Of a DNA stretch of 64,000 nt, positions 6,590 through 63,519 are shown piece by piece. Location: assembly GCA_022566735.1 (NCBI GenBank), contig JADFIG010000001.1:62001-126000 (forward strand), given 5' to 3'. The position numbers were made by a program, and so were the translations under genes. Within the stretch, counting starts at the first letter, position 1. Each line of letters begins with the position of its first letter. The notes beneath the pieces are model-generated. The model did no database searches, had not been told where the DNA came from, and saw only the letters and a program-made list of their open reading frames with translations. The DNA comes from Pseudomonadota bacterium (GTDB lineage Bacteria; Pseudomonadota; Gammaproteobacteria; Burkholderiales; Burkholderiaceae_C).

Positions 6590-6751
6590 GGACACCGACT
6601 GTGGGACTGCGCCGGCCCCGCGGACAAGCGAGGAATGCGCATGTGATGTCGGCACATGCGCACTTGGCAGATGCCCATGCGAATCGCGTCTTTGATGCCG
6701 TGCCGCCGCTTGGGTAAGGTGTGTGACCTTGATCCAGCCTGCCCACACCAC

Positions 6752-7471
6752 ATGACTTCGCCTGCCACCGTCTGGGTCCGAGACCGCCATGCCGCCGCCA
6801 GCCCCTGGGGGGGCGCGGAGCGCGCGGGGACCTTGCCCATCGCTGCCCGCTCCGAGCGCAGTGCGACCTTGCTGGCTTCGCGTGCGTCGCCCAGCGAGGC
6901 CCTGGTCTGCCACACCGTGGGCGGCAATTTGCGGCGCCTGCGCCAGCAGCACCGGCTGTCGCTGGAGCAGCTGTCCGCGCTCAGCGGGGTGTCGCGGGCC
7001 ATGCTCAGCCAGGTCGAGCAGGGCCGCAGCGTGCCCAGCATCAAGACGCTGTGGCAGGTGGCCCAGGCCCTGGGCGTGTCGGTGTCGTGGTTCCTGGAGC
7101 CCACGCACGACGACACCGTGCTGCTGCTGCAGCCCTCGCCCGACAGCCCTGCGCAGTTGCCCGCCGAAGGCGCCGAGCTGCGCCCCTTGCAGCGGGCCCG
7201 CGATGGCCACCGCGAGGCCTTCTACGAACTGCGTCTGGCGCCCGGCGGCCACCTGAGCCTGCCGGCCACCGTGGCCGCGCGCCGCGTCAATGTGGCGGTG
7301 TCCACGGGGGTGCTCGACGTGATCCTGCACGGCCAGCGCCACCTGGTGCGGCCGCGCGAGTCCTTGCAGTACGAGGTCAACGACGCGCTGGCCTGGCACA
7401 ACAGCTGCCACGTCCAGGTGCAGGCCTTCGTGCTGATCCGCACCCCCGGCGCGTCCGATGGGCAAGGGTGA
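6752..7471 (+). CDS. XRE family transcriptional regulator with cupin sensor domain
   Basis: NLRRLRQQHRLSLEQLSALSGVSRAMLSQVEQGRSVPSIKTLWQVAQALGV helix-turn-helix followed by cupin-like C-terminus. Confidence 0.88.
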   Translation: MTSPATVWVRDRHAAASPWGGAERAGTLPIAARSERSATLLASRASPSEALVCHTVGGNLRRLRQQHRLSLEQLSALSGVSRAMLSQVEQGRSVPSIKTLWQVAQALGVSVSWFLEPTHDDTVLLLQPSPDSPAQLPAEGAELRPLQRARDGHREAFYELRLAPGGHLSLPATVAARRVNVAVSTGVLDVILHGQRHLVRPRESLQYEVNDALAWHNSCHVQVQAFVLIRTPGASDGQG

Positions 7472-7479
7472 GCGCCGGC

Positions 7480-8745
<1,266 letters not shown>

Positions 8746-8807: not shown

Positions 8808-9659
8808 TCACCAGGAGGGCGTCGCCGAGGTGGCAGCCGATGCCGATGCCGATGCCGACGTGCCGGGGGCTTGCGCGGTTTCTGCCACACCGGGTGCATC
8901 GGCGCCTGCATGGCGCCAGCCACCGCTGGCCGCCCACGCCGATGCCAGACCCACCGCCAGCGCGAGGCCCAGGGCCCACGGGCCGGCCTGGCGTGGCGCC
9001 GGATGGGGCCGGGCGGTGGACTTCCAACCCGTCACCATGGGCGGCACGAGCCGGTCCCGCTTGACCAGGGCGTGGAACACGATGGCCGCCAGGTGCAAGC
9101 CGATGAGCGCGTACAGCCCGTTGACCAGGCGGTGGTGCCAGCCGGTGAGGGCGTGCGCGCGGTCCTCGTCGAGCAGGTCGCTCCAGGGGCCGGCAAAGGC
9201 GATGTCGTCGTTGCTGAACAGGCCGGTGCCGGCTTGCAGCGCCAGCAGCGACAGCAGGGCCACGACCGACAGCGCCCCCAGCGGGTTGTGGCCGACGCCC
9301 TGCCAGGCCCCCGCGAGGTAAGCCCGCAGGCGCCGGGGCGTGGGCAGGAAGTGCGCGAAGCGCGAGGTCTGCGAGCCCACCAGACCCCACACCAGCCGGA
9401 AGGCCAGCAGGCCCACGATGAGCAGGCCGGCCCGGCCGTGCCAGGCCATCCAGGCGCCTCCCGCCAGCCCGGTGGCGATGGCCGCGCTGACGGCCGCCAG
9501 CAGCAGCCAGTGGAACAGGCGCAAGGGCGCGTCCCAGACGCGGACGCGGTGGACGGTGCGCGAAGCGGCGGCAGAGGCCAGGGCCGTCTTCGGGGCGGGC
9601 TGCCCCGCCTCGGTGGCGAGGCCTGTCGTGGCGGTGGACATGGCGGCCTCCGGTGTCAC
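8808..9659 (-). CDS. Cytochrome b561 family protein
   Basis: VWDAPLRLFHWLLLAAVSAAIATG and multi-TM pattern with WHHRLVNGLYALIGLHLAAIVFH. Confidence 0.87.
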   Translation of the reverse strand: MTPEAAMSTATTGLATEAGQPAPKTALASAAASRTVHRVRVWDAPLRLFHWLLLAAVSAAIATGLAGGAWMAWHGRAGLLIVGLLAFRLVWGLVGSQTSRFAHFLPTPRRLRAYLAGAWQGVGHNPLGALSVVALLSLLALQAGTGLFSNDDIAFAGPWSDLLDEDRAHALTGWHHRLVNGLYALIGLHLAAIVFHALVKRDRLVPPMVTGWKSTARPHPAPRQAGPWALGLALAVGLASAWAASGGWRHAGADAPGVAETAQAPGTSASASASAATSATPSW

Positions 9660-10189
9660 TTCGGTGCTGCGGGCACGGCGGGTGCGGGCGGCACGATCCG
9701 CGCGATGGAGCCACCGGCTTCGGCGTAGTCCACCGAGCCGATGGCGCCGGCCACCTTGTAGCCCTTGCTGCTGAGCAGGTCGCCCGCGGCGCCGGCACGG
9801 TGGGCGCGGTTGGACACCGTCAGGATGGTGCGGTCCCTGGGGATGTAGGCCAGCGCCTCGGGCAGGTCCTTGATCTGCACGCTCAGGTAGATGGGGAAGC
9901 CGCCGTGCTTGCTGAGCTCGTCAGGGCGGCGCACGTCGATGATGAGCAGCTTCTGGGGCTGGCCCAGCAGCTTGTCCACGTCGTTGCGGCTGAGCTGGCG
10001 GGTTCGGTAGGTCCAGGGCGGGGCCACGTAGGCGCTGGCGGCAGCGGCCGGTGCGGCGGCCGCTTCCTGCGCCTGGGCGGTGGCGGGCGTGACGGCGGCC
10101 GCGGTCAACAGGACGGCAGACAGGCCGGCCAGCAAGGCGGTGGACAGCGAGGGGGCGCGCAGGGACAGGGACAGGGGCGAGGTGGTCAT
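9656..10189 (-). CDS. Exported rhodanese-like protein lacking cysteine
   Basis: Signal peptide; LLIIDVRRPDEL...ILTVSNRAHRAGAAGDLLSSKGY; no Cys in the ORF. Confidence 0.8.
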   Translation of the reverse strand: MTTSPLSLSLRAPSLSTALLAGLSAVLLTAAAVTPATAQAQEAAAAPAAAASAYVAPPWTYRTRQLSRNDVDKLLGQPQKLLIIDVRRPDELSKHGGFPIYLSVQIKDLPEALAYIPRDRTILTVSNRAHRAGAAGDLLSSKGYKVAGAIGSVDYAEAGGSIARIVPPAPAVPAAPK

Positions 10190-10258: not shown

Positions 10259-11059
10259 TCAGGCCGCCAGGGCTTGCGGGGAGGGCTCGGCGTGCTCGTG
10301 GCTGAACTCGCCCAGCACGTCGTCCTTGATGGCGTGGAAGGCCGCGCTGTGGCGGTCGCGCGGGCGCGGCAGGGCCACATCGACGATGCGCTTGATGCGG
10401 CCCGGGCGCGGCTGCATCACCACGATGCGGTCGCCCAGGTAGACGGCTTCCTCGACATCGTGGGTGACCAGCACCGCGGTGATGCCCTCGGCCTGCACGA
10501 TGCGTTGCAACTCCTGCTGCAGGTGGGTGCGGGTGAGGGCGTCCAGCGCGCCGAAGGGCTCGTCCAGCAGCAGCACCTCGGGGCGGTTGACCAGCGCCCG
10601 CGCGATGGCCACGCGCTGCGACATGCCGCCCGACAGCTGGTACGGGTAGGCTTTCTCGAAGCCCTTGAGCCCGACCAGGGCGATGTGCTCCTGCACGCTG
10701 CGGTCCTTGTCGGCCTGGGCGCCCGGGGCGTTGAGCAGGCCCAGGGCGACGTTGTCGGCCACGGTCAGCCAGGGAAAGAGGCGGTGCTCCTGGAAGACGA
10801 TGCCGCGCTCCAGGCTGGTGCCGCGGATGGGCTCGTTGTCCTGCAGCAGCTCGCCTTCGTGCTGGGTTTCCAGCCCGATGAGCAGGCGCAGCAGCGTGGA
10901 CTTGCCGCAGCCGCTGCTGCCCACGATGGAGATGAACTCGCCCGGGCGGATGGACAGGTTGATGTCTTGCAGCACCTGCAGGGGCTGGCCCTTGACGTCG
11001 TACTGCTTGTGAAGGTGGCGGATGTCGATGGTGCCGGCGCGGGGGGAGGCGAGGGACAT
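10259..11059 (-). CDS. ABC transporter ATP-binding protein (SsuB/TauB/AtsC-like)
   Basis: [18 protein letters not shown] Walker [38 protein letters not shown]. Confidence 0.93.
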
Positions 11060-11128
11060 GGCGGGCTCCTGGAAGGATGTGGGTCTGGCGGGAAGAAGGG
11101 GAGGAGGCGGGCGCGGTGGGCGGGCCGC

Positions 11129-11983
11129 TCAACGCTGCTGCGGCGCACGCCAGCGCAGCAGGCGCTGCTCGGCGCGGTCGGCCAGGCGGTTGAAGGCATT
11201 GCCGACCAGGCCGATGGCCAGCAGGCCGAAGACGATCAGCTCGACGTTGAAGGCCATGCGGCCCTTGAAGACCGTGTTGCCCAGGCCCTGGCCGTCGTTG
11301 ACGAGCAGGAACTCCGCGCCGATGGTGGCCAGCCAGGCGCAGATCAGGCCCAGGCGCAGGCCGCCCAGGATCTGCGGCGAGGCCGCCGGCAGCACCAGGC
11401 GCCACAGCGTCTGTGCGCGGCTGAAGCCGTGGACGCGGGCCACCTCGGCGTGGGCCTGGCTGACGCCCTTCACGCCGTCGAGCGTGCCCAGCACCACCGG
11501 GTAGAAGGCCGAGAAGGCGATGAACACGACCTTGGAGACCTCGCCCGTGCCCAGCAGCGCCGACAGCAGCGGCAGCCAGGCGAACAGGGATATCTGCCGC
11601 GCCGTGTGGAAGGTCGGGCCCAGCAGGCGATCGGCCAGGCGCGACACCCCGATCAGCGTGCCCACGGCGACGCCGGCCAGCGAGCCCAGCAGGAAGCCGC
11701 TGAGGTCGCGGCCCAGGCTCAGGCCCACGCCCAGGTAGAAGTCGGGGTTGGCCAGCTCCTTGAGCGCGGTGCCCAGCACGCCGGCGGGCGGCACGATCAG
11801 CCGGGTGTTGACCAGGTGCAGCGAGGTCACGGCCCACCACAAGGCCACGAAGGCCAGTGGCAGGACCAGGCCGCGCCAGTCGGGGCGGCGGCCGGCGCGC
11901 AGGGCACGAGGCCAGGGGAGGGGCCAGACGCTCTGGCGGGCACTCGGGGCCGAGGGGGAGGGGGTGTCGGGCGCGGCAGACAT
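11129..11983 (-). CDS. ABC transporter permease (SsuC/TauC-like)
   Basis: GLSLGRDLSGFLLGSLAGVAVGTLIG..., EVARVHGFSRAQTLWRLVLPAASPQILGGLRLGL EAA loop. Confidence 0.92.
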   Translation of the reverse strand: MSAAPDTPSPSAPSARQSVWPLPWPRALRAGRRPDWRGLVLPLAFVALWWAVTSLHLVNTRLIVPPAGVLGTALKELANPDFYLGVGLSLGRDLSGFLLGSLAGVAVGTLIGVSRLADRLLGPTFHTARQISLFAWLPLLSALLGTGEVSKVVFIAFSAFYPVVLGTLDGVKGVSQAHAEVARVHGFSRAQTLWRLVLPAASPQILGGLRLGLICAWLATIGAEFLLVNDGQGLGNTVFKGRMAFNVELIVFGLLAIGLVGNAFNRLADRAEQRLLRWRAPQQR

Positions 11984-12012
11984 GGGAGGTCCTGGTCGGG
12001 GGAAGAAGGCGC

Positions 12013-12945
12013 TCAGAAAGCGTTGCGGCGCCAGCGTTGCAGGCGGGATTCGATGAGGCGCAGGCCCAGCTCGATGAGCAGGCCCACCACGCCGATGGCC
12101 AGCATGGCGACGATGACCATGTCGATCTGGCTGAGCGAGCGGCTGTAGGCCATCAGGAAGCCCAGGCCGTCGCTGGACGACAGCAGCTCCACGAAGACCA
12201 CCGACAGCCAGGCCTGCATCACGCCCTGGCGCAGACCCGTGAACAGGGCCGGCGTGGCCGCGGGCAGCACGATGCGGCGCAAGGTCTGCCAGTGACTGAA
12301 GCGGTACACCTGCCCCACCTCCAGCAAGGCCGCGGGGATGTTGGCGATGCCCTGCAGCGTGCTCAGCGCCACGGGCACCACCACGGCGATCGACACGGCC
12401 GAGACCTTCAGCGGCTCCTCGATGCCCACGAAGATGATGAGCAGCGGGATCCAGCCCAGCACCGGCAACTGGGCCAGCACGTCGAAGCTCGGGAAGACGT
12501 AGGCCTTGAAGCTGCGCGACAGCCCCATGCCCAGGCCCAGCAGCAGGCCGGCGGAGCCGCCGATGGCCAGGCTCGAGGCCACCCGCGACGCGCTCACCCG
12601 AACGTGCTCCAGCAACTCGCCGGTCTCCAGCACCGACAGCAGCGACTCCCACACGAAGGCCGGCGGCGGCAGGATCTGCTCGGCGATCCAGTGCCGCTCG
12701 GCCGCCGTCCACCACAGGGCGAACAGCAGCGCGGGCAGCACCAGGCCCAGCGCAGCCGTGCCGACCGCGCGCAGTGCCTGCCGGGCGGAGGCTGTCGCTC
12801 GCCGCTGCAGTGGTGCGCTGGCCTCGCGGACCCAGGCGCCGATGCGCGGGCGGGCCAGTGCGGGCGCCTGGGCCGACCCGACCGACGCCCCTTGGGGCGC
12901 CGCGGTCAGCGGGAAGATGTCGAGGTCGTCGGTGGACACGGCCAT
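12013..12945 (-). CDS. ABC transporter permease (SsuC/TauC-like), second copy
   Basis: VRVSASRVASSLAIGGSAGLLLGLGMGLS..., VYRFSHWQTLRRIVLPAATPALFTGLRQG. Confidence 0.92.
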   Translation of the reverse strand: MAVSTDDLDIFPLTAAPQGASVGSAQAPALARPRIGAWVREASAPLQRRATASARQALRAVGTAALGLVLPALLFALWWTAAERHWIAEQILPPPAFVWESLLSVLETGELLEHVRVSASRVASSLAIGGSAGLLLGLGMGLSRSFKAYVFPSFDVLAQLPVLGWIPLLIIFVGIEEPLKVSAVSIAVVVPVALSTLQGIANIPAALLEVGQVYRFSHWQTLRRIVLPAATPALFTGLRQGVMQAWLSVVFVELLSSSDGLGFLMAYSRSLSQIDMVIVAMLAIGVVGLLIELGLRLIESRLQRWRRNAF

Positions 12946-12969: not shown

Positions 12970-14067
12970 TCAGGTGCGCAGGAACTTGCCGTTGGCGTCC
13001 TGTGTGGGCCAGAAGGTCTCCAGCTTCTGATCGGCCAGGGCCTTGTTCAGGTACTTGGGCTCGATCCAGCCTTCGATGCTCACGTCGCGGCGGATCAGGC
13101 GGTAGCGCTTGATCTCGTCGATGGAGCGCTGCAGGGAGGCCAGGTAGTAGTCGTCCAGCAGCGGGTTCTGGCGCGTGCGCAGGTCCTTGGTGCGGTCCCA
13201 CACGCGCTTGTTGTCGATGTAGGTGTTCACGCCCGAGCGGGTCCACAGCTGGTACTGGGTCTCGCGGTTGGCTTCCTGGGTGCTCCAGTGCGCGACCTTG
13301 ACCAGGCGATTGACGATGCGCTGCACCAGGTCCGGGTGCTTCTGCTCGAAGGCCTCGCCCACCCACACCGTGCCGGGGCGGTTGATGATGGCGTCGTCGT
13401 AGATCTCCGACAGGCGCTTGGCCACGCCGCGCGCCTCCAGGCCGAAGGGCGTCTCGATGGCGCCGGCGATGTCGCCGGTGGACAGCGAGGCGACGCGGTC
13501 ATCGCGGATCTGGCTGATGATGCGGAACTGCTTCTCGGGCTCGGTGAAGCCGTTCTTTTCCAGGAAGCGGTACATGGTCAGCTGGCCCGCGGTGCCCTTT
13601 TGCACCGACAGGGTCTTGCCCTGCAGGTCGCCCACGGTCTTGGCCGTCGAGGTGGCGGGGGTGATGAAGTAGATGTCGCCGCCGCGGCCCGAAGACAGCA
13701 GGATCTTGTGCTTGAGGCCGGTGGAGCGGCCCACGATCAGGGGCAGGTCGCCGTGGCCGAAGCAGAAGTCCAGCAGGCCGTTGGCGAAGGCCTCGTTGAG
13801 CGCGGGGCCGGCGCCCACGTAGTACTTCCATTCGATCTTGATGCCGTCGGCGGCGAACTCCTGCTCCAGCTCGCTGCGGAAGACGGTGTTGGCCGTGAAG
13901 CCGCTGGACGGCAGGGGGCGGCCGCCCGTGCCCGCGCCAGGGAAGCCGATGCGGATGGTGGCCGGCTTGCCTGCGGATTGCGCGTGGGCGGTGGCGCTGC
14001 CCAGGCTGATGAGGGCGGGGCTGGCCAGGCCGGAGGCCAGCAGGGAGGTGAATGAACGACGCTTCAT
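12970..14067 (-). CDS. ABC transporter substrate-binding protein (sulfonate/sulfate-ester type, SsuA/AtsR-like)
   Basis: Signal peptide MKRRSFTSLLASGLASPALISLGSATAHAQ; TIRIGFPG... YYVGAGPALNEAFANGLLDFCFGHGDLP; upstream of the permease/ATPase genes. Confidence 0.85.
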   Translation of the reverse strand: MKRRSFTSLLASGLASPALISLGSATAHAQSAGKPATIRIGFPGAGTGGRPLPSSGFTANTVFRSELEQEFAADGIKIEWKYYVGAGPALNEAFANGLLDFCFGHGDLPLIVGRSTGLKHKILLSSGRGGDIYFITPATSTAKTVGDLQGKTLSVQKGTAGQLTMYRFLEKNGFTEPEKQFRIISQIRDDRVASLSTGDIAGAIETPFGLEARGVAKRLSEIYDDAIINRPGTVWVGEAFEQKHPDLVQRIVNRLVKVAHWSTQEANRETQYQLWTRSGVNTYIDNKRVWDRTKDLRTRQNPLLDDYYLASLQRSIDEIKRYRLIRRDVSIEGWIEPKYLNKALADQKLETFWPTQDANGKFLRT

Positions 14068-15735: not shown

Positions 15736-15793
15736 CTTCTCACTCCTAATTGGGTTGCCCAGTTGATGGTTTGAATATCTGAGGTGCCTCCTT

Positions 15794-15811
15794 ATGCATG
15801 GTTTGTGCCAA
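15794..15811 (-). promoter_or_regulatory. Candidate sigma-54 promoter for porin
   Basis: Minus strand TTGGCACaaaccATGCAt: exact TGGCAC at -24, ATGCA at -12, GG-to-GC spacing 12. Confidence 0.6.
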
Positions 15812-15902
15812 GGCAAATGTCCGTCATGCGGGGTATTTGTTCGGGTTTTCAGGTCCGCTTGTTGGGTTTCAAGAAATGCCATGCTGGGTTTTGTTCACCA
15901 TT

Positions 15903-15922
15903 GCTGCTGGGAAATCAGCAGC
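15903..15922. promoter_or_regulatory. Inverted repeat, candidate activator (UAS) site
   Basis: GCTGCTG-GGAAAT-CAGCAGC perfect 7-bp arms in divergent sigma-54 promoter region. Confidence 0.4.
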
Positions 15923-15997
15923 CTGGCCCGGGCGGGGGCTGATGGCTTGCTGATGCGGCTTCGTTGCATGTTCATGATGTTTGCAAATATCCAATTG

Positions 15998-16010
15998 AAT
16001 CAATGACTTG
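15998..16010 (+). promoter_or_regulatory. IHF consensus site
   Basis: AATCAATGACTTG matches WATCAANNNNTTR exactly; lies between inverted repeat and plus-strand -24/-12. Confidence 0.5.
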
Positions 16011-16046
16011 CAATGATTTTGCCTTCGCTTTCCAATGCGACCGAAG

Positions 16047-16063
16047 CTGGCCCGACAGTTGCT
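16047..16063 (+). promoter_or_regulatory. Candidate sigma-54 promoter for DUF1553 gene run
   Basis: CTGGCCCGacagTTGCT: one mismatch in the core TGGCACG-N4-TTGCW; GG-to-GC spacing 12. Confidence 0.65.
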
Positions 16064-16212
16064 AATGACGGGGCACGGATGCGCCAGATTCAGAAACCCG
16101 TCGAGACGGGTCTGGTTTCGTTCATCCATCGCATGAGTCCATTTGGAAATTGATATTCAACCGGTGAGCAAGCAAATGCAAAACTCAAATGACGCCTCTG
16201 GAGGTGATCGCC

Positions 16213-18564
16213 ATGAATAAGGCAGTGATCCTGTCTGCCATCACCTTGTCGCTGGTGGGTGCGGCCTGGAATGGCGCAGTGCAAGCCGCCGAGGATGGCG
16301 CGGCGAAAACGACGTCTGCCGCCCCCGCGGCCAAGGCCTGGTCGCCTTACCAGCCGGTGAAGGCGCCGGCGGTGCCCGAGGTCAGGCAAAAGGGCTGGCC
16401 GCGCTCGTCCGTCGACGCCTATGTGCTGACCCAGCTCGAAGCCAAGGGCCTCAAGCCGTCGCCCGAAGCCGATCGCGCCACCTTCATCCGCCGCGCTACC
16501 CTGGACGCCTGGGGCCTGCTGCCCACACCGGAAGACATCCAGGCCTTCGTCAACGACAAGTCGCCCAAGGCGCACGAGAAGCTGGTCGACCGCTTGCTGG
16601 CCTCGCACCACTTCGGTGAGCGCCAGGCGCGCCGCTGGCTGGACCTGGCCCGCTACGCCGACAGCACCGGCTTCCAGAACGACAACACGCGTCCGAACAA
16701 CTGGCGTTACCGCGACTACGTCATCAACGCCTTCAACCAGGACAAGCCCTTCACGCGCTTCATCCAGGAGCAGGTGGCCGGCGACGAGCTGTGGCCGGAC
16801 AACCAGGAGGCCCGCATCGCCACGGGCTTCCTGGGCGGCTACCCGGACAACTTCAACTCGCGCGACCTGGTGCAGCGCAAGTACCAGATCGAGACCGACA
16901 TGACCGACCTGGTCGGCGAGACCTTCCTGTCCAGCACCATCGGTTGCGCCCGTTGCCACAACCACAAGTCGGACCGCGTCAGCCAGAAGGAGTACTTCCA
17001 GCTGCAGGCCTTCTTCGCCAACACCGCCTTCAATGAGAAGACGCCGCTGGCCCAGGGCACCGAGACCGAGTACGACAAGGAATTCCTCAAGGCCCAGGCC
17101 GCTTACCAGGAAGCCACCAAGGACATCCGCGCCAGGCAGAAGGCCATCCTGGACACGGTGCGCGAGGCCGGCCGCAAGTACTACAACGAGCGCTACCTCG
17201 ACGACAGCCGCGCCGCCATCTTCAAGCCCGAAGCCGAGTGGACCGCACTGGACAAGTGGGTGAACTGGCGCAAGCAGGCCGTGGCCTCGGACAACGAGAT
17301 CGTCAGCTACCTGAAGAACACAGCCGAGGAGAAAGACCGCGCCGACCACAACCCCGACAACGTCGAGAAGTGGAAGCAGTTCCAGGCCCTGCAGGCCGAG
17401 CTCAAGAAGTTCGACAAGCTCAAGCCCGCCAAGGGCAGCACCTGGCTGACCACCGCCTTCGAGCTGACCAACAAGGACGTGCCGGCCACGCATGTGCGTT
17501 TCGGTGGCATCCATGAGCGTCCGCTGGAAGCGGTGAACCCGGCCATCCCGGCGCTGTGGGGCGGCAAGGGCGAGGTCGCGATCACGCCGACGGCCACTTC
17601 CTCGGGCCGCCGCACCGCGCTGGCGCAATGGCTGAGCAGCGACAGCAACCCGCTGACCGCCCGCGTCTACGTCAACCGCGTCTGGGCGCAGTACTTCGAC
17701 AAGGGCATCGTGGCCACGGTGGCCGACTTCGGCCGCGCCGGCCAGAAGCCGACCCACCCCGAGCTGCTCGACCACCTGGCTTCGCGCTTCGTGCAAAACG
17801 GCTGGAGCGTGAAGAAGCTGCACCGCGAGATCCTGCTGTCGGCGACCTACCGCCAGGCTTCGGACGAGCGCGCCGATGCGCAGAAGCTGGACCCGGACAA
17901 CAAGCTGCTGGCGGTCTACCCGCGCAAGCGCCTGGAGGCCGAGGTCATCCGCGACTCGCTGCTGTACGCATCGGGCCTGCTGGTCGACAAGGTCGGTGGC
18001 CCCTCGGTGTTCCCGCCGGTGCTCAAGACGGGCGATGTGGGCAAGTCGCAGGACTTCGCCGGCAACCGCGCCTGGACCGTGTCGGAGAACAAGGAAGACT
18101 GGCACCGCCGCAGCATCTACGTGTTCACGCGCCGCAGCTTCCCGTACCCGATCACGCAGAACTTCGACCCGGCCAACCCGAACAACCCGCACCACAAACG
18201 GGATGTGACGACCACGCCGCTGCAGGCCCTGACGCTCTTCAACAGCGAGATCGTCTTCGACTGGAGCCAGGCACTGGCAGGCCGCGTCATCAACGAGGCC
18301 GGCCCGAACGAAGACGCCCAGCTCAAGCGCGTCTACGAAATCCTCTTTGCCCGCGACCCGAGCAAGGCCGAGCGCGCCGCCCTCAAGCAGTTCCTGGCCG
18401 AGCAGCAGATCGCCATCCGCCAGAAGGCCGCTTCCGGCAAGTTCGAAGTGGCCGTGCCCCAGGGCCTGAAGGACACCAAGGGCTTCGATCCGGTGCGCTC
18501 CGCCGCCTTCGTCGACCTGGTGCACACGGTCGCCAACTCCAACAACTTCGCCTACCGCTTCTGA
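16213..18564 (+). CDS. DUF1549/DUF1553 domain-containing protein (Planctomycete-type PSCyt2/PSD1-like)
   Basis: SVDAYVLTQLEAKGLKPSPEADRATFIRRATLDAWGLLPTPEDIQAFV, HFGERQARRWLDLARYADSTGFQND, GCARCHNHKSD, NPLTARVYVNRVWAQYFDKGIV, QNGWSVKKLHREILLSATYRQ. Confidence 0.9.
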   Translation: MNKAVILSAITLSLVGAAWNGAVQAAEDGAAKTTSAAPAAKAWSPYQPVKAPAVPEVRQKGWPRSSVDAYVLTQLEAKGLKPSPEADRATFIRRATLDAWGLLPTPEDIQAFVNDKSPKAHEKLVDRLLASHHFGERQARRWLDLARYADSTGFQNDNTRPNNWRYRDYVINAFNQDKPFTRFIQEQVAGDELWPDNQEARIATGFLGGYPDNFNSRDLVQRKYQIETDMTDLVGETFLSSTIGCARCHNHKSDRVSQKEYFQLQAFFANTAFNEKTPLAQGTETEYDKEFLKAQAAYQEATKDIRARQKAILDTVREAGRKYYNERYLDDSRAAIFKPEAEWTALDKWVNWRKQAVASDNEIVSYLKNTAEEKDRADHNPDNVEKWKQFQALQAELKKFDKLKPAKGSTWLTTAFELTNKDVPATHVRFGGIHERPLEAVNPAIPALWGGKGEVAITPTATSSGRRTALAQWLSSDSNPLTARVYVNRVWAQYFDKGIVATVADFGRAGQKPTHPELLDHLASRFVQNGWSVKKLHREILLSATYRQASDERADAQKLDPDNKLLAVYPRKRLEAEVIRDSLLYASGLLVDKVGGPSVFPPVLKTGDVGKSQDFAGNRAWTVSENKEDWHRRSIYVFTRRSFPYPITQNFDPANPNNPHHKRDVTTTPLQALTLFNSEIVFDWSQALAGRVINEAGPNEDAQLKRVYEILFARDPSKAERAALKQFLAEQQIAIRQKAASGKFEVAVPQGLKDTKGFDPVRSAAFVDLVHTVANSNNFAYRF

Positions 18565-18596: not shown

Positions 18597-20048
18597 ATGA
18601 GCAACGATCAACGCCGCACCTTCCTGCGCCAGGCCGGTCTGGGCCTGGGCGGTGCCGCCCTCGGTGGCTTCATCCCCGGCATTGGCCACGTCAGTGCCGC
18701 CACCGCGGCCGAGCTGGTGGACCCGCTGGCGCCCAAGGCCCCGCAGTTCGCCGCCAGGATCAAGTCGGTGATCTGGCTGCATCAGAACGGCGCGCCCTCC
18801 ACGCTGGACCTCTACGACCACAAGCCCGACCTGCAAAGGCTGGCAGGCCAGCCGGTGCCGGCGTCCTTCCTCAAGGGCATCAAGACCAGCACGCAAGGCG
18901 GCGTGGGCCGGCTGTACGTGTCCAAGGAGCGCACCTGGAAGCAGCACGGCGACAGCGGCGCCTGGTTCTCCAACCTGCTGCCTCACCTGGCCACCCAGGC
19001 CGACAAGCTGACCTTCATCAAGTCCAGCACCACCGTGGGCGCCACCCACGACATCTCCATCCTCAAGCTCAACACGGGCGACCTGAACCCGGGCCGTCCC
19101 TCGCTGGGCGCCTGGATCAACTACGCCCTGGGCTCGGCCAACCCCGACCTGCCGTCCTACGTGGTGCTCTACAACGGCGATCGCGAGCCCTCGGCCGGCT
19201 CGGTCAACTGGAGCGCGGGCTTCCTGCCGGCGGTCTACCAGGGCACGGCTTTCCGCCCCGGCGACTCCCCCATCCTCTACCTGGAGCGCCCCGAACTGCG
19301 CAACGCCGTGCAGCAGCGCACCTCGCTGGACCTGCTCAAGCGCCTGAACCTGATCGGCGCGGAGCAGTACCCGCATGACACCGAGCTCAAGGCCCGCCTG
19401 CAGTCCTACGAGCTGGCCGACCGCATGCAATCTGCGGCCCCTGCGGCCGTGGACATCAGCAAGGAAAGCGCCGCCACCAAGGAGCTCTATGGCCTCAACG
19501 ACAAGACCAGCCAGAGCTACGGCGAGGTGCTGCTGCGTGCCCGCCGCCTGGTGGAGCGCGGTGTGCGCTTCGTGCAGGTGGTCTCGGGCTTCCCCGAGGG
19601 CGTGGACATCGACCGCCAGAGCTGGGATGCGCACAGCGAGCTGGACGCCAACCACGCCGTCATGGCCCGCATGGTGGACAAGCCCATTGCCGGCCTGCTG
19701 CACGACCTGAAGGAGCGCGGCCTGCTGGACAGCACCCTGGTGGTGTGGACCTCCGAGTTCGGTCGCACCTCCTGGGGCGAGAGCGGCACCGGCCGCGACC
19801 ACAACCCCTGGGGCTACACCCAGTGGCTGGCCGGCGGTGGCCTCAAGGCGGGCTTCACCTATGGCGAGACCGACGACATCGGCCTGCAGGTGGCCGACAA
19901 GGACAAGGCCGTGGACACCTACGACCTGCACGCCACCGTGCTGCACCTGATGGGCCTGGACCACCTCAAGACCACCTTCATCCACAACGGCCGCTCCGAG
20001 CGCCCGACCGTGGTGTACGGCAAGGTCATCAAGGAGATCCTGGCCTGA
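18597..20048 (+). CDS. DUF1501 domain-containing protein, Tat signal
   Basis: RRTFLRQAGLGLGGAALGG twin-arginine; IWLHQNGAPSTLDLYDHKP; LVVWTSEFGRTSWGESGTGRDHNPWGYTQWLAGGGLK. Confidence 0.9.
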   Translation: MSNDQRRTFLRQAGLGLGGAALGGFIPGIGHVSAATAAELVDPLAPKAPQFAARIKSVIWLHQNGAPSTLDLYDHKPDLQRLAGQPVPASFLKGIKTSTQGGVGRLYVSKERTWKQHGDSGAWFSNLLPHLATQADKLTFIKSSTTVGATHDISILKLNTGDLNPGRPSLGAWINYALGSANPDLPSYVVLYNGDREPSAGSVNWSAGFLPAVYQGTAFRPGDSPILYLERPELRNAVQQRTSLDLLKRLNLIGAEQYPHDTELKARLQSYELADRMQSAAPAAVDISKESAATKELYGLNDKTSQSYGEVLLRARRLVERGVRFVQVVSGFPEGVDIDRQSWDAHSELDANHAVMARMVDKPIAGLLHDLKERGLLDSTLVVWTSEFGRTSWGESGTGRDHNPWGYTQWLAGGGLKAGFTYGETDDIGLQVADKDKAVDTYDLHATVLHLMGLDHLKTTFIHNGRSERPTVVYGKVIKEILA

Positions 20049-20440
20049 TGCTGCAAGGGACCCGCAAGACCTGGGTCGTGCTGGCCTTGCTGGCTGCGGT
20101 GTTCGGGGGCGTTCGCGCCGCCGACACCGAGCTGGACATGGACCTGATGCAGACCATCGAGGACACCAACAAGAGCCTGGCGTCGAACATCGCCACGCAG
20201 AACGGCCCCGGCAGCACCTCGGATGCGAAGGAGCTGCAGGCGCTGTTCGGCAAGGTCGAGGCGCATTTCGTGGCCAAGGGCGATGCCCCGGATGCGGTCG
20301 AGCTGTCGCGCAAGAGCCGGGAGCTGTCGGAGGCCATCGTCAAGTCGGTCGGCGCCAAGGACTTTGGTGCCGCGTCCGACTCGGCCACGACGCTGTCGCG
20401 CACCTGCCGCACCTGCCACACCTTCTACAAGAAGTCCTGA
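20048..20440 (+). CDS. Cytochrome c' like class II c-type cytochrome
   Basis: Signal peptide, four-helix-type sequence, C-terminal CRTCHTFYKKS. Confidence 0.75.
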   Translation: MLQGTRKTWVVLALLAAVFGGVRAADTELDMDLMQTIEDTNKSLASNIATQNGPGSTSDAKELQALFGKVEAHFVAKGDAPDAVELSRKSRELSEAIVKSVGAKDFGAASDSATTLSRTCRTCHTFYKKS

Positions 20441-20452
20441 GAGGGTGAGCTG

Positions 20453-21277
20453 TTGCCAAACCACGTGTTGAGTTCAAGCTGGAGCGGGGTGTGGAGCCTG
20501 TCGGTGTGCCTGTCGATGACCTTGTCCGTCGGCGTGGCGGCCTGGCTGGTCGGCCTGCCGCCGAGCGCCTGGGCGGCCAAGGCTGCCCCGGTGGGGCGCG
20601 GCAAGCCGGCACAGCCCGCGGTGCCGGCAGCGATGGCACCCCAGGTGCCCGCAGGCAACCCCTTGCTGGGCCGCGACAAGATCGACAGCGAACGCTGCCA
20701 GGAATGCCACGGCGCCGACGGGCAGGGCGCGGGCCATGCCAACGGGCCGGAAGGCAAGTTCGCCAAGCTGGCCGGGCAGGACGCGGCCTACGTGCTCAAG
20801 CAGATGCAGGACTTCCGCTCCGGCGCGCGCAAGCACGACCAGATGGCCATCATGGCGCGCAGCGTCAGCGACGAGGACGTGCGCGACATCGCGGCCCATT
20901 TCGCCAGCCTGGCGCCCATGCGCGGCGAGCCCGTGGCGGGCGCTGCGGCGCAGGCCCTGGCGCAGCGTGGGCAGCAGCTCTTCGCGCAAGGCGATGCGGC
21001 CCGGGGCGTGCCGGCCTGTGCGAGCTGCCACGGCGCGGCCGGGGAGGGCAACGCCGCCTTGCGTGCACCGCGCATCGCCGGGCAGGAGTGGCGCTACCTC
21101 GACAAGCAACTGCGCGACTGGCGCTCCGGCGAGCGCCGCAACAGCCCCGACGGCGCCATGAACCAGGCCCTGTCGCGGCTGAGCGATGCCGACATCGACG
21201 CCTTGACCCAGCACCTGGCGAGCCTGCCAGCCCCCCATCCCTCACTTTCCACCGCGTTTCAGGAGCAACACCGATGA
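20453..21277 (+). CDS. Diheme cytochrome c (c4-like); TTG start uncertain
   Basis: Two CxxCH motifs (CQECHGADGQG, CASCHGAAGEG) in duplicated cytochrome c folds. Confidence 0.85.
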   Translation: MPNHVLSSSWSGVWSLSVCLSMTLSVGVAAWLVGLPPSAWAAKAAPVGRGKPAQPAVPAAMAPQVPAGNPLLGRDKIDSERCQECHGADGQGAGHANGPEGKFAKLAGQDAAYVLKQMQDFRSGARKHDQMAIMARSVSDEDVRDIAAHFASLAPMRGEPVAGAAAQALAQRGQQLFAQGDAARGVPACASCHGAAGEGNAALRAPRIAGQEWRYLDKQLRDWRSGERRNSPDGAMNQALSRLSDADIDALTQHLASLPAPHPSLSTAFQEQHR

Positions 21278-21894
21278 GCCACTGGTTCAAGAACACCGCC
21301 ACCGCGCTGGCGACCGTGCTGGGCGCCGCCGCCTGGCTGAGCGCGCTGCCGGCCCATGCCGCGCTGAAGGCCGGCGATGCCGCCCCCGAGTTCAAGCTGA
21401 AGGCCTCGCAGGCCGGCAAGGCCTTCACCTACTCCCTCAAGGACGCCTTGCGCAAGGGCCCGGTGGTGGTCTATTTCTACCCCTCGGCCTTCACGGCGGG
21501 CTGCAATGTGCAAGCCCACCTGTTCGCCACCCAGGTGGACAAGTTCGCTGAAGTCGGCGCCACCATCGTGGGCGTGTCGCTGGACAGCATCGAGCGCCTC
21601 AACGACTTCTCCGCCGACCCGCAGTACTGCGCCGGCAAGATCCCCGTGGCCTCGGACGCCGACGGCCTGGTGGCCCGCGCCTTCGACCTGCCCATCAGCG
21701 CGGTGCCTGCCGGCCGCAAGGACACGCGCGGCGTCGAGATCGACCACGCCCGCACCGAGCGCACCACCTTCATCGTCACCCCGGACGGCCGCGTGGCCGC
21801 CACCGTGGGCGGCGTGGCCCCCGATGCCAACGTGCAGCAGGCCCTGGACATCGTGCAGCGCCTGCGCGCCAAGGCCGCGCCGGGCAAGTCCTGA
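21274..21894 (+). CDS. Exported peroxiredoxin (AhpC/TSA, BCP/PrxQ-like)
   Basis: Signal peptide ...SALPAHA; GDAAPEFKL; VVVYFYPSAFTAGCNVQAH. Confidence 0.88.
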   Translation: MSHWFKNTATALATVLGAAAWLSALPAHAALKAGDAAPEFKLKASQAGKAFTYSLKDALRKGPVVVYFYPSAFTAGCNVQAHLFATQVDKFAEVGATIVGVSLDSIERLNDFSADPQYCAGKIPVASDADGLVARAFDLPISAVPAGRKDTRGVEIDHARTERTTFIVTPDGRVAATVGGVAPDANVQQALDIVQRLRAKAAPGKS

Positions 21895-21954: not shown

Positions 21955-22443
21955 ATGAGATTGCGTCTGACACCCTTGCTGAGCGCCACGCTGGCGCTCA
22001 CCACCCTCGCCGCCACCCTGGCCACCACGGGCACCGCCTGGGCCCAGCAAGCCCCCAAGCCCGAGCAGCTCATCAAGTGGCGCCAGTCGGCCTACCAGGT
22101 GCTGGCCTGGAACACCGGCCGCGTCAAGGCCAATGTGGACGGCACCTACAACAAGGACGACGTCATCAAGGCCTCCAACACCATCGCCGCGCTGGCCAAT
22201 TCGGGCCTGGGCTCGCTCTACGCCCCTGGCACCGAAACCGGCAAGGGCTGGCACGAGACCACCGTCAAGCCCGAACTGTTCACCGACAAGAAGGCCGGTG
22301 AAGTGGCCGCGGCTTTCAACAAGGAAGCCAACGAGCTGGCCCGCGTGGCGGCCGTGGGCGATGTGGCTGCGGTGAAAGCCCAGCTGGGCAAGCTGCAGGG
22401 CACCTGCAAGGCCTGCCACGACGATTTCCGCAAAAAGGACTGA
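21955..22443 (+). CDS. Cytochrome c'
   Basis: Signal peptide; C-terminal CKACHDDFRKKD; four-helix pattern. Confidence 0.9.
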   Translation: MRLRLTPLLSATLALTTLAATLATTGTAWAQQAPKPEQLIKWRQSAYQVLAWNTGRVKANVDGTYNKDDVIKASNTIAALANSGLGSLYAPGTETGKGWHETTVKPELFTDKKAGEVAAAFNKEANELARVAAVGDVAAVKAQLGKLQGTCKACHDDFRKKD

Positions 22444-22456
22444 CAGGAGCGACGCC

Positions 22457-23173
22457 ATGAAACACAGCCAACGACTCATCACCTCCCTGGCCCTGCTGAC
22501 GCTGTCCGGCGCGGCACTGGCCCAAAGCGCCGCACCTGCTGCGCCCGCCGCACCCGCCAACCGCGAGACCGGCCCTTTCAGCTTCTTCGTGACCAGCGTG
22601 GGCTCGGGCAAGGGCGCCGACCTCGGCGGCCTGGCCGGTGCCGACGCGCACTGCCAGAAGCTGGCTTCCGCCGTGGGCGCGGGCAGCAAGACCTGGCGCG
22701 CCTACCTCAGCACCCAGTCCTGGGATGGCAAGCCCGCCGTCCACGCGCGTGAGCGCATCGGCACGGGCCCGTGGTTCAACGTCAAGGGCGCCCTGATCGC
22801 CCGCAGCGTCAGCCACCTGCACGGCGACGAGCTGGAAGAAGCCCGCATCGGCAACGCCGTGAACTGGTCCACCGCCCTCACCGAGAAGGGCGAGCCGGTC
22901 AAGCGCGCGGGCGACACGCCCAACGAGCACGACATCCTCACCGGCTCGCTGCCCGATGGCCGTGCCTTCGTCAACGACACGTCCGACCGCACCTGCAAGA
23001 ACTACACGAGCAGCGCGGAAGACGGTGCCGTGCAGGTCGGCCACTTCGACCGCACCGGCGGCGTGCACACGGCGCTGTCGTGGAACTCGGCGCACCCCAG
23101 CCGCGGTTGCAGCCAGCCCAAGCTGGTGAGCTCCGGCGGCGCGGGCTACTTCTATTGCTTCGCCGCGAAGTGA
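22457..23173 (+). CDS. Exported lectin-like protein
   Basis: Signal peptide; FFVTSVGSGKGADLGGLAGADAHCQKLASAVGAGSKTWRAYLST and CKNYTSS...GGAGYFYCF. Confidence 0.65.
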   Translation: MKHSQRLITSLALLTLSGAALAQSAAPAAPAAPANRETGPFSFFVTSVGSGKGADLGGLAGADAHCQKLASAVGAGSKTWRAYLSTQSWDGKPAVHARERIGTGPWFNVKGALIARSVSHLHGDELEEARIGNAVNWSTALTEKGEPVKRAGDTPNEHDILTGSLPDGRAFVNDTSDRTCKNYTSSAEDGAVQVGHFDRTGGVHTALSWNSAHPSRGCSQPKLVSSGGAGYFYCFAAK

Positions 23174-23189: not shown

Positions 23190-26100
23190 ATGTGGATCGT
23201 CCAAGTCGCGCTGCGGCGCCCCTACACCTTCGTCGTCGCGGCCCTGCTGATCCTGCTGGCCACGCCCTTCGTGCTGCGCAAGACGCCGGTGGACGTCTTC
23301 CCCGAGATCGACATCCCCGTGGTGGCCATCCTGATGAGCTACAACGGCCTGCCGGCCAAGGAGATGAACGACCGCATCATCACGCCCATCGAGCGCAACC
23401 TGGCCAACTCGGTGAGCGACATGGAACACACCGAGTCGCAGACCCTGGCGGGCATGGGCATCATCAAGGTGTTCTTCCAGCCGCAGGTGGACCAGGCCAC
23501 GGCCATCGCCCAGGTGGTGGCCAGCACGCAGGCCTCGCTGCGCTCGCTGCCGGCCGGCGCCACGCCGCCCACCATCATCAAGTACAGCGCCACCGACCTG
23601 CCCGTCCTGCAGCTGGGTTTTTCCAGCCCGGTGCGCAGCGAGCAGGAGCTCAACGAGCAGGCCTTCAACGTGCTGCGCACCAAGCTCATCACCATCCCCG
23701 GGGTGGCGGTGACGGCGCCGTACGGCGGGCGCTTCCGCCAGGTCTCGGTGGACATCAACGGCGCGGCCCTGTCGGCGCGCGGCCTGAGCGCGGTGGACGT
23801 GGTCAACGCGCTGAACGTGCAGAACCTGACCCTGCCTTCGGGCACGGCCAAGATCGGTGCGCAGGAGGTCAACATCGACCTCAACGGCTCGCCCAGGAAC
23901 ATGGCCGCGCTGGGCGACATCCCCATCACCACGGCCAATGGCGCGACGGTGTTCCTGCGCGATGTGGCCCAGGTGCGCGACGGCTACCAGCCGCAGACCA
24001 ACGTGGTGCGCCGCGACGGCGAGCGCGGCCTGCTGATGACGGTGCTGCGCAATGGCGGCGCCTCCACGCTGGACATCATCGACACCATCCGCCGCGACCT
24101 GCCCAAGGCGGTGCTGGCGCTGCCGGAGGACATCACCGTCACGCCGCTGGCCGACCAGTCGGTGTTCGTCAACGCGGCCATCCGCTCGGTGGTGCACGAG
24201 GCCCTCATCGCCGCGGCCCTGACGGCCACCTTGCTGCTGCTGTTCCTGGGCAACTGGCGCAGCACCCTGATCATCGCGGTGTCCATCCCGCTGTCCATCC
24301 TGTGCTCGTTGATCGTGCTGCACCTGATCGGCCAGACCATCAACATCATGACGCTGGGCGGGCTGGCGCTGGCCGTGGGCATCCTGGTGGACGATGCCAC
24401 GGTGGAGATCGAAAACGTCGAGCGCCACCTGCACATGGGCAAACGGCCGCAGCAGGCCATCCTGGACGGGGCCGCCGAGATCGCCACGCCGGCCCTGGTG
24501 GCCACGCTGTGCATCTGCATCGCCTTCGTGCCCATGTTCTTCCTCACCGGGGTGGCGGGCAAGCTGTTCGTGCCGCTGGCGCAGGCGGTGGTGTTCGCCA
24601 TGCTGGCCTCCTACGTGCTGTCGCGCACCCTGGTGCCCACGCTGGTGATGTACCTGATGCAGCGCCAGCCCCGTGCGGCGCCTGCCGAGGCAGGGGCGCA
24701 GGCGCCGGGCCGCTGGCGTCGCATCCACCTGGCGTTCGAGGCCGGCTTCGAGCGCCTGCGCCACGACCACGCGGTGGTGCTGGCGGCCCTGCTGCGCCGC
24801 AAGCGCCTGGCGGGCGGGGTGTTCCTGGGCCTGGCGCTGCTGTCGTGCGGGCTCTACACCCAGCTGGGCCGCGACTTCTTCCCGGTGGTCGATGCCGGCC
24901 AGATCCGCCTGCATGTGCGCGCGCCGCTGGGCACCCGGCTGGAGGAGATGCCGGCCTTCGTGGATCAGGTCGAGGCGCGCATCCGCCAGCTCGTCGGTCC
25001 CGAGCAGATCTCGGGCATCGTGGACATCGTGGGCGGGCCTTACACGCCCTACAACACGCTCTACAACAACAACGGCACCTTCGACAGCAGCGACGTGGAG
25101 ATCCTGGTGTCGCTCAAGCCCGGCCACGCGCCCACCGCGGGGCACATCCGCAAGCTGCGCCAGGCCCTGCCGCGCGACTTCCCGGGCAACGAGTTCTACT
25201 TCCAGCCCGCCGACATGGTCAGCCAGACGCTGAACTTCGGCCTGAGCGCGCCGATCGACATCCAGATCCAGGGCAACAAGACGGCCGAGAATCTGGCCGT
25301 GGCCACGGAGCTGGTCAACCAGGTGCGCCAGGTGCCCGGTGCGGTGGACACCACGCTGTACCAGCGCTTCAACCGCCGCGCCCTGTCGCTGGAGATGGAC
25401 CGCGCGGCCCTGGCGCAGACCGGCCTGGTGGCGCGCGATGTGGCGCAGAACGTGATGGTGTCGCTGAGCTCCAGCTTCCAGACCGCGCCCACGTACTGGC
25501 TCAACCAGGCCAATGGCACGGTCTACAACGTGGCGGTGCAGGCGCCCCAGCACGAGATCGACAGCCTGGGCGCGATGCTGAGCATCCCCGTCAACCCGGC
25601 GGGTGCCGGCACCGGTGGGGCGCAGCGCGAGCCGCAACTGCTGGGCAATGTGGTGCAGGTCAAGTCCAGCAGCCAGCAGGGCAATGTCTCGCACTTCAAC
25701 ATCGCCAACGTCATCGACATCCACACCGGGGTGGACGGCCGCGACCTGGGCAGCACCTGCGACGACATCGCCCGCCTGGTCGAGGCCGCACGCGCCAGGC
25801 TGCCGCGCGGCAGCGAGATCACGGTGCGCGGCCAGATCACCACGCTGCAGACGGCGTTCGAGCAGCTGGGCTGGGGCCTGCTGGTGGCGGTGGTGCTGGT
25901 CTACCTGCTGCTGGTGGTGAACTTCCAGTCCTGGCTGGACGCGCTGATCATCGTCAGTGCCTTGCCCGCTGCGCTGGCCGGCATCGCCTGGATGCTGTTC
26001 CTGTCCGGCACGCCGCTGTCGGTGCCCGCGCTCACCGGCGCCATCATGACGGTGGGCGTGGCCACGGCCAACAGCATCCTGGTGGTGGCCTTTGCCCGCC

Positions 26101-26399
26101 AGCGCCTGGCCGAGGGCGTGCCGCCCGTGAGCGCCGCCCTGGAGGCCGGCTCGACCCGGCTGCGCCCGGTGCTGATGACGGCCCTGGCCATGGTGATCGG
26201 CATGGTGCCCATGGCCCTGGGGCTGGGCGAGGGCGGCGAGCAGAACGCACCGCTGGGCCGCGCGGTCATCGGCGGGCTGCTGCTGGCCACCGTCTCGACC
26301 CTGCTGTTCGTGCCCCTGGTGTTCGCCGGGGTGCATGGCCGCTTGCAGGCGCGTGCCGGCCGCCGGCTGGCGGGTGTCGAGCCCGCCGTGGCCGTGTGA
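23190..26399 (+). CDS. RND efflux permease (HAE1-like)
   Basis: FPEIDIPVVAILMSYNGLPAKEMNDRI, FLGNWRSTLIIAVSIPLSIL, GGLALAVGILVDDATVEIENVERH. Confidence 0.93.
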   Translation: MWIVQVALRRPYTFVVAALLILLATPFVLRKTPVDVFPEIDIPVVAILMSYNGLPAKEMNDRIITPIERNLANSVSDMEHTESQTLAGMGIIKVFFQPQVDQATAIAQVVASTQASLRSLPAGATPPTIIKYSATDLPVLQLGFSSPVRSEQELNEQAFNVLRTKLITIPGVAVTAPYGGRFRQVSVDINGAALSARGLSAVDVVNALNVQNLTLPSGTAKIGAQEVNIDLNGSPRNMAALGDIPITTANGATVFLRDVAQVRDGYQPQTNVVRRDGERGLLMTVLRNGGASTLDIIDTIRRDLPKAVLALPEDITVTPLADQSVFVNAAIRSVVHEALIAAALTATLLLLFLGNWRSTLIIAVSIPLSILCSLIVLHLIGQTINIMTLGGLALAVGILVDDATVEIENVERHLHMGKRPQQAILDGAAEIATPALVATLCICIAFVPMFFLTGVAGKLFVPLAQAVVFAMLASYVLSRTLVPTLVMYLMQRQPRAAPAEAGAQAPGRWRRIHLAFEAGFERLRHDHAVVLAALLRRKRLAGGVFLGLALLSCGLYTQLGRDFFPVVDAGQIRLHVRAPLGTRLEEMPAFVDQVEARIRQLVGPEQISGIVDIVGGPYTPYNTLYNNNGTFDSSDVEILVSLKPGHAPTAGHIRKLRQALPRDFPGNEFYFQPADMVSQTLNFGLSAPIDIQIQGNKTAENLAVATELVNQVRQVPGAVDTTLYQRFNRRALSLEMDRAALAQTGLVARDVAQNVMVSLSSSFQTAPTYWLNQANGTVYNVAVQAPQHEIDSLGAMLSIPVNPAGAGTGGAQREPQLLGNVVQVKSSSQQGNVSHFNIANVIDIHTGVDGRDLGSTCDDIARLVEAARARLPRGSEITVRGQITTLQTAFEQLGWGLLVAVVLVYLLLVVNFQSWLDALIIVSALPAALAGIAWMLFLSGTPLSVPALTGAIMTVGVATANSILVVAFARQRLAEGVPPVSAALEAGSTRLRPVLMTALAMVIGMVPMALGLGEGGEQNAPLGRAVIGGLLLATVSTLLFVPLVFAGVHGRLQARAGRRLAGVEPAVAV

Positions 26400-63245: not shown

Positions 63246-63519
63246 GTTGCATCGAAAGCTGTTTGATCGCAGCGTACCTCAGCCAAATGGTCGTCACGCC
63301 CGATCACGACAGGCAAGTCGCCTCACTTTTCTATCTGGAAAGCATCAGATCATCGTAACGATGCGAGAAGCGATCTCCACAGCGTGATAGATTCCGACTG
63401 CGGGGGTAAGGGCAGTCCTCCCCGCAACCGCAAGACGCCTGGCGTCCAAGCACTGCTGAATCGCCCCGGAGATCCTAGACGCTTGTGAGCCTCAAACTAC
63501 TGGCTTAGAAGGAGCCGAG

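Follow-up and report, generated by a model that had tools for sequence, protein, structure and literature searches.

A predicted divergent sigma-54 control region between a PSCyt2-PSD1/DUF1501/cytochrome module and a sulfonate-type transport operon in a member of the Burkholderiales

The PSCyt/PSD (DUF1549/DUF1553) genes, abundant in freshwater Verrucomicrobia and first described in Planctomycetes, were presented in the paper on the verrucomicrobial genes as a family about whose function nothing is known (PMC5615132). An operon encoding a protein of this kind, PSCyt2-PSD1, together with a DUF1501 protein and c-type cytochromes, lies in the 64,000-nucleotide stretch analysed here (hereafter the window; contig JADFIG010000001.1 of assembly GCA_022566735.1, order Burkholderiales) and raises the question of which regulator, and in response to which signal, switches such a module on. 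The analysis of the window and of related loci points, with good though not complete confidence, to a divergent sigma-54 control region at 15736-16212, which would place a sulfur-scavenging regulon under an SfnR-family activator. The elements of this reading are the following (IHF, integration host factor).

16047-16063, plus strand: predicted sigma-54 (-24/-12) promoter of the PSCyt2-PSD1/DUF1501/cytochrome operon, with a predicted transcription start site at about 16074
15795-15810, minus strand: predicted divergent sigma-54 promoter TGGCACAAACCATGCA of the outer-membrane-protein/ABC-transporter operon, based on motif scan, conservation and alignment
15998-16010, plus strand: IHF-type site AATCAATGACTTG, a perfect match to WATCAANNNNTTR, starting 50 bp upstream of the TGG of the plus-strand promoter
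15905-15920, no strand assigned: enhancer-like dyad TGCTGGGAAATCAGCA (TGYTG-N6-CARCA), a putative SfnR-type upstream activator site common to both promoters
7480-8745, plus strand: SfnR-family sigma-54 activator, an AAA+ protein with GAFTGA and a Fis-type helix-turn-helix and without a receiver domain

The plus-strand promoter and its conservation

Direct reading of the plus strand at 16047-16063 gave CTGGCCCGACAGTTGCT, which departs from the consensus TGGCACGNNNNTTGCW (TGGCACG-N4-TTGCW) at a single position, A to C after TGGC, with GG and GC intact and the spacing correct. The end of the motif and ATG 16213 of the DUF1549/DUF1553 gene are separated by 150 nt, exactly as the original prediction had it. 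This ATG is likely the true start of the gene and is preferred to ATG 16189, the less likely start chosen by the open reading frame caller, because it is preceded by a GGAGG Shine-Dalgarno sequence and opens a signal-peptide-like N-terminus. The genome carries one rpoN gene.

The sequence of the motif by itself was rejected as a measure of significance, as the 64-kb window contains one match with at most one mismatch against 1.44 expected by chance; in the whole genome there are 55 such sites against 31 for the reversed control. The case for the promoter therefore rests on its position and conservation. A search of named genomes with the DUF1549/DUF1553 protein yielded 34 loci (L numbers here and below denote loci), chiefly from Aquabacterium and other Burkholderiales, with some from Massilia, Derxia, the Nitrosomonadales and others; one of them (L036) came without upstream sequence. 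In the 300 bp preceding the orthologous start, the window has a motif with no more than two mismatches, and so do 28 of the 33 other loci. The scan demanded GG and GC, so the invariance of these positions is built in and is not evidence. Among the 30 loci used for statistics, the motif has no mismatch in two, one in 21, two in six and three in one. The threshold of one mismatch was thus satisfied by 23 of 30 loci against 0.23% of shuffled regions, and that of two mismatches by 29 of 30 against 1.9%, some of these loci being close relatives and hence not independent.

Most of the loci without a motif could be accounted for. The region ends at a contig edge in L032, and in L038 and L039 the motif is located farther upstream, before a rhodanese-like gene. 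L047 comes from the sole Magnetospirillum genome that carries the module; this genome lacks an SfnR relative and, at the module, a sigma-54 site. Only a three-mismatch site is present in L029. Judged by position and conservation, the promoter at 16047-16063 can be regarded as real with high confidence.

A short leader open reading frame (MQNSNDASGGDRHE) is present at 16176-16220 of the window, and its TAA overlaps the PSD1 start (ATGAATAA). Such a frame, of 14 codons in most cases, also occurs upstream of PSD1 in L014, L015, L016, L019, L021, L041 and L043, and frames of a similar type in L023 and L046. The overlap possibly reflects translational coupling, or else it may follow from the conservation of the Shine-Dalgarno region.

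The divergent promoter, the IHF-type site and the dyad

The minus-strand partner that had been proposed for this promoter was found as well: TGGCACAAACCATGCA, read from 15810 to 15795, is conserved across the relatives and faces the outer-membrane-protein/SsuA-like ABC-transporter operon. The alignment of the control region from 15 loci showed that four blocks are kept, namely the minus-strand promoter, a TGTTG-type dyad, the IHF-type site and the plus-strand promoter, and that the spacers diverge. In 24 of the 30 loci, an IHF match with no or one mismatch starts between -40 and -51 from the TGG; among the shuffled sequences, a match with no mismatch anywhere in 150 bp was found in 1.1%.

The 30 upstream regions contain 13 exact TGYTG-N6-CARCA dyads (0.07 in shuffles) and 40 with at most one mismatch (1.6 in shuffles); the consensus used for the count was drawn from these very loci. 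A similar dyad, TGTTGCCCGGGCAACA, accompanied by a sigma-54 motif, was read separately upstream of msuE in P. aeruginosa. Within the window's own genome, which was covered by pattern searches, 16047-16063 is the only one of the 55 sigma-54-like sites with an exact dyad suitably upstream, among the 50 of 53 dyads listed. The stricter form TGTTGA-N4-TCAACA was also tried and rejected, as it was not enriched in this genome and the wider form fits better. As far as can be read from the sequence, the IHF-type site and the dyad complete a typical sigma-54 promoter.

The activator gene and its co-occurrence with the module

The protein encoded at 7480-8745, originally predicted to be a sigma-54 activator, matches Sigma54_activat with E=2e-66, has the GAFTGA loop and shows the domain composition of the SfnR family, with a helix-turn-helix match just below the Pfam cut-off. 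In the tree of 63 sequences it is placed inside the SfnR clade (support 100/98), and the nine other activators of the genome fall outside. Members of this clade have msuE/ssuD as neighbours in a P. aeruginosa plasmid and sfnG/msuE in Burkholderia, and the subgroup of the window's activator is sister to the activators adjacent to msu and sfn genes.

Moreover, the activator follows the module across genomes. Among 201 genomes of the family, it was detected (E<=1e-95) in all 11 with the DUF1553 protein against nine of the 190 without it (Fisher p=4e-13, a value that ignores relatedness). The activator gene directly adjoins the operon in Derxia and in L031, and it often stands beside the module (L027, L031, L123). 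Control of the module by the SfnR-type activator is likely.

Some further observations concern the activator group. The gene at 6656-7471, which encodes an XRE-type regulator whose C-terminal part is cupin-like, ends 8 nt before the activator gene, and its relatives occupy the same position in L014, L015, L016, L019, L025 and L033. Five SfnR-type activators are encoded in a genome without the DUF1553 module (G017; L121, L122 and L135). In L119 (12544-15416), a family 2A encapsulin and its cysteine desulfurase cargo adjoin an SfnR-type activator of the same subgroup, MsuE, SsuA and MetQ, which suggests SfnR-linked sulfur storage.

The regulon, its signal and the alternatives

The module genes are rearranged among the relatives and are still preceded by the sigma-54 motif and the dyad at their new sites. 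This applies to the relocated rhodanese-cytochrome b genes in Massilia, L018, L029, L030 and L034, to the relocated outer-membrane-protein and RND transporter genes in L134, and, in L123, L124, L126 and L130, to more distantly related PSD1 paralogues or the rhodanese genes belonging to them. As the motif and the dyad follow the relocated genes, these cases form the strongest evidence for the whole module being a single sigma-54 regulon. Together with the conserved promoters, the common dyad/IHF region and the co-occurrence, they support the coordinate control by the nearby activator that was suggested at the outset. The genes of the two operons are as follows.

16213-18564, plus strand: PSCyt2-PSD1 protein (DUF1549/DUF1553), one CxxCH haem motif
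18597-20048, plus strand: DUF1501 protein, Tat-like leader, alkaline-phosphatase/sulfatase-superfamily-like
20042-20440, plus strand: small c-type cytochrome, one CxxCH, weak cytochrome c' match
20453-21277, plus strand: di-haem c-type cytochrome, two CxxCH
21300-21894, plus strand: AhpC/TSA-type peroxiredoxin-like protein, start approximate
21955-22443, plus strand: cytochrome c'
22457-23173, plus strand: conserved module protein, weak DUF1554/endostatin-like match
23190-26399, plus strand: RND (AcrB-type) transporter, a less certain member of the operon; preceded by a sigma-54 site and dyad of its own in L134
14137-15735, minus strand: outer-membrane beta-barrel-like protein, N-terminal coiled coil; opens the minus operon; no family match, identified by sequence reading
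12970-14067, minus strand: SsuA-like periplasmic binding protein, below the family cut-off
10259-12945, minus strand: two ABC permeases and an ATPase of the nitrate/sulfonate/taurine type
9656-10189, minus strand: rhodanese-like protein, below the Pfam cut-off
8808-9641, minus strand: cytochrome b561-type membrane protein

In the proposed mechanism, the intergenic region 15736-16212 would act on both sides. The SfnR-family activator would be made or become active once sulfate runs out, and would bind the dyad at 15905-15920 and probably also a weaker site nearby. IHF would bend the DNA at 15998-16010, and the AAA+ domain of the activator would open the sigma-54 holoenzyme at both promoters. 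Transcription would then proceed rightward from 16047-16063 into the PSCyt2-PSD1/DUF1501/c-type cytochrome operon, and leftward from 15810-15795 into the operon for the outer-membrane protein, the SsuA-like ABC transporter, the rhodanese-like protein and cytochrome b561. Both operons would probably form one sulfur-scavenging regulon, in which an organosulfur compound is captured in the periplasm and its sulfur is freed or imported. A more tentative proposal, which we consider possible and somewhat doubtful, is that PSCyt2-PSD1, DUF1501 and the cytochromes make up an electron-transfer-coupled system in the periplasm that removes the sulfur of an organosulfur compound under sulfate starvation.

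The likeness of the DUF1501 protein to sulfatases may serve as a lead only: the sequence profile match is weak (E 0.01), and the structure model, of low confidence (mean pLDDT 55), matches sulfatases and lipoteichoic acid synthases at low TM-scores. A canonical Cys-type sulfatase was rejected, as the protein has no cysteine for the formylglycine residue and none in its whole length. Elsewhere in the window, a match to the chrB-b RNA family was recorded at 63401-63456 (41.9 bits, gathering score 36.5).

In Pseudomonas, SfnR and sigma-54 reportedly control sfnFG, sfnA and the msu operon (Endoh 2003, 2005; Habe 2007; Lundgren 2019, as cited in PMC8234197 and PMC13352529), and SfnR of P. putida is said to be induced on sulfate starvation through CysB. 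The system in the window resembles the Pseudomonas one in the activator family, the promoter type, the similar dyad and the link to sulfonate transport. The Pseudomonas target, however, is a flavin monooxygenase pathway, whereas here it would be the PSCyt2-PSD1/DUF1501/cytochrome module and an SsuA-like importer, arranged around a divergent promoter pair with a common dyad and an IHF-type site. With the gene sets of Planctomycetes and Verrucomicrobia the window shares the PSCyt/PSD (DUF1549/DUF1553) and DUF1501 domain families (PMC5615132), but its genes are clustered compactly, in a proteobacterium, and would be under SfnR-type control.

Sulfur starvation, which the original prediction had implied, is probably the signal and is the best supported one, based on the SfnR clade, the msuE/ssuD/sfnG neighbours, the SsuA-like importer and the rhodanese-like protein. 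The SfnR subgroup could instead have been rewired to redox, carbon source or a similar signal, with the regulator and the promoters as described. Such a change would fit the cytochrome-rich module with its peroxiredoxin, its position among polysaccharide-degradation genes in Saccharobesus, the placement of the activator in a sister group of those SfnR/MsuR proteins that adjoin sulfur genes, and the XRE-cupin gene preceding it in close relatives. We consider it rather unlikely, since the same-group relative in L119 adjoins MsuE, SsuA, MetQ and the encapsulin-associated cysteine desulfurase, and the minus operon itself encodes the SsuA-like importer and the rhodanese-like protein.

It is still less probable that the sigma-54 promoters are real and mainly driven by another activator, for example a PrsR-type PEP-CTERM regulator, with sulfur not involved. 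The genome encodes about ten sigma-54 activators whose domain matches are at full strength, and among the NCBIfam models PrsR (TIGR02915), which describes a PEP-CTERM regulator, matches the 7480-8745 protein best. That match reaches 325 bits, well below the cut-off of 502.6, and PEP-CTERM/PrsR control was rejected on this score and on the co-occurrence of the module with the SfnR-type activator, the only activator for which co-occurrence was computed. The lack of a receiver domain and the single suitably placed dyad likewise argue for the 7480-8745 protein. Finally, a chance motif with the operon transcribed from a sigma-70 promoter is highly improbable, for although about one such match is expected in 64 kb, its position is conserved in most related loci together with the IHF site, the dyad and the divergent partner promoter.

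Several points weigh against the sulfur-scavenging regulon under SfnR-type control. The dyad consensus shares its source with the loci counted, only the P. aeruginosa counterpart having been read separately; L028, L035 and L045 have no good dyad; and a second good dyad, present in several close relatives, is missing from the window. The activator is also encoded in nine sampled genomes that lack the module, and therefore has other targets too.

The sigma-54 promoter type is already known; its use on an uncharacterised module of this kind is absent from the literature searched, in which no report ties DUF1501/DUF1553 to SfnR or to sulfur starvation. The link of proteobacterial PSCyt/PSD and DUF1501 proteins to an SfnR/sigma-54 circuit provides a specific and testable hypothesis, sulfur scavenging, and some bacteria with the module are in culture (Aquabacterium commune DSM 11901, Derxia gummosa DSM 723 and Massilia). 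If the reading as a periplasmic sulfur-stripping system is true, it would be the first physiological role for the widespread PSCyt2-PSD1/DUF1501 families.
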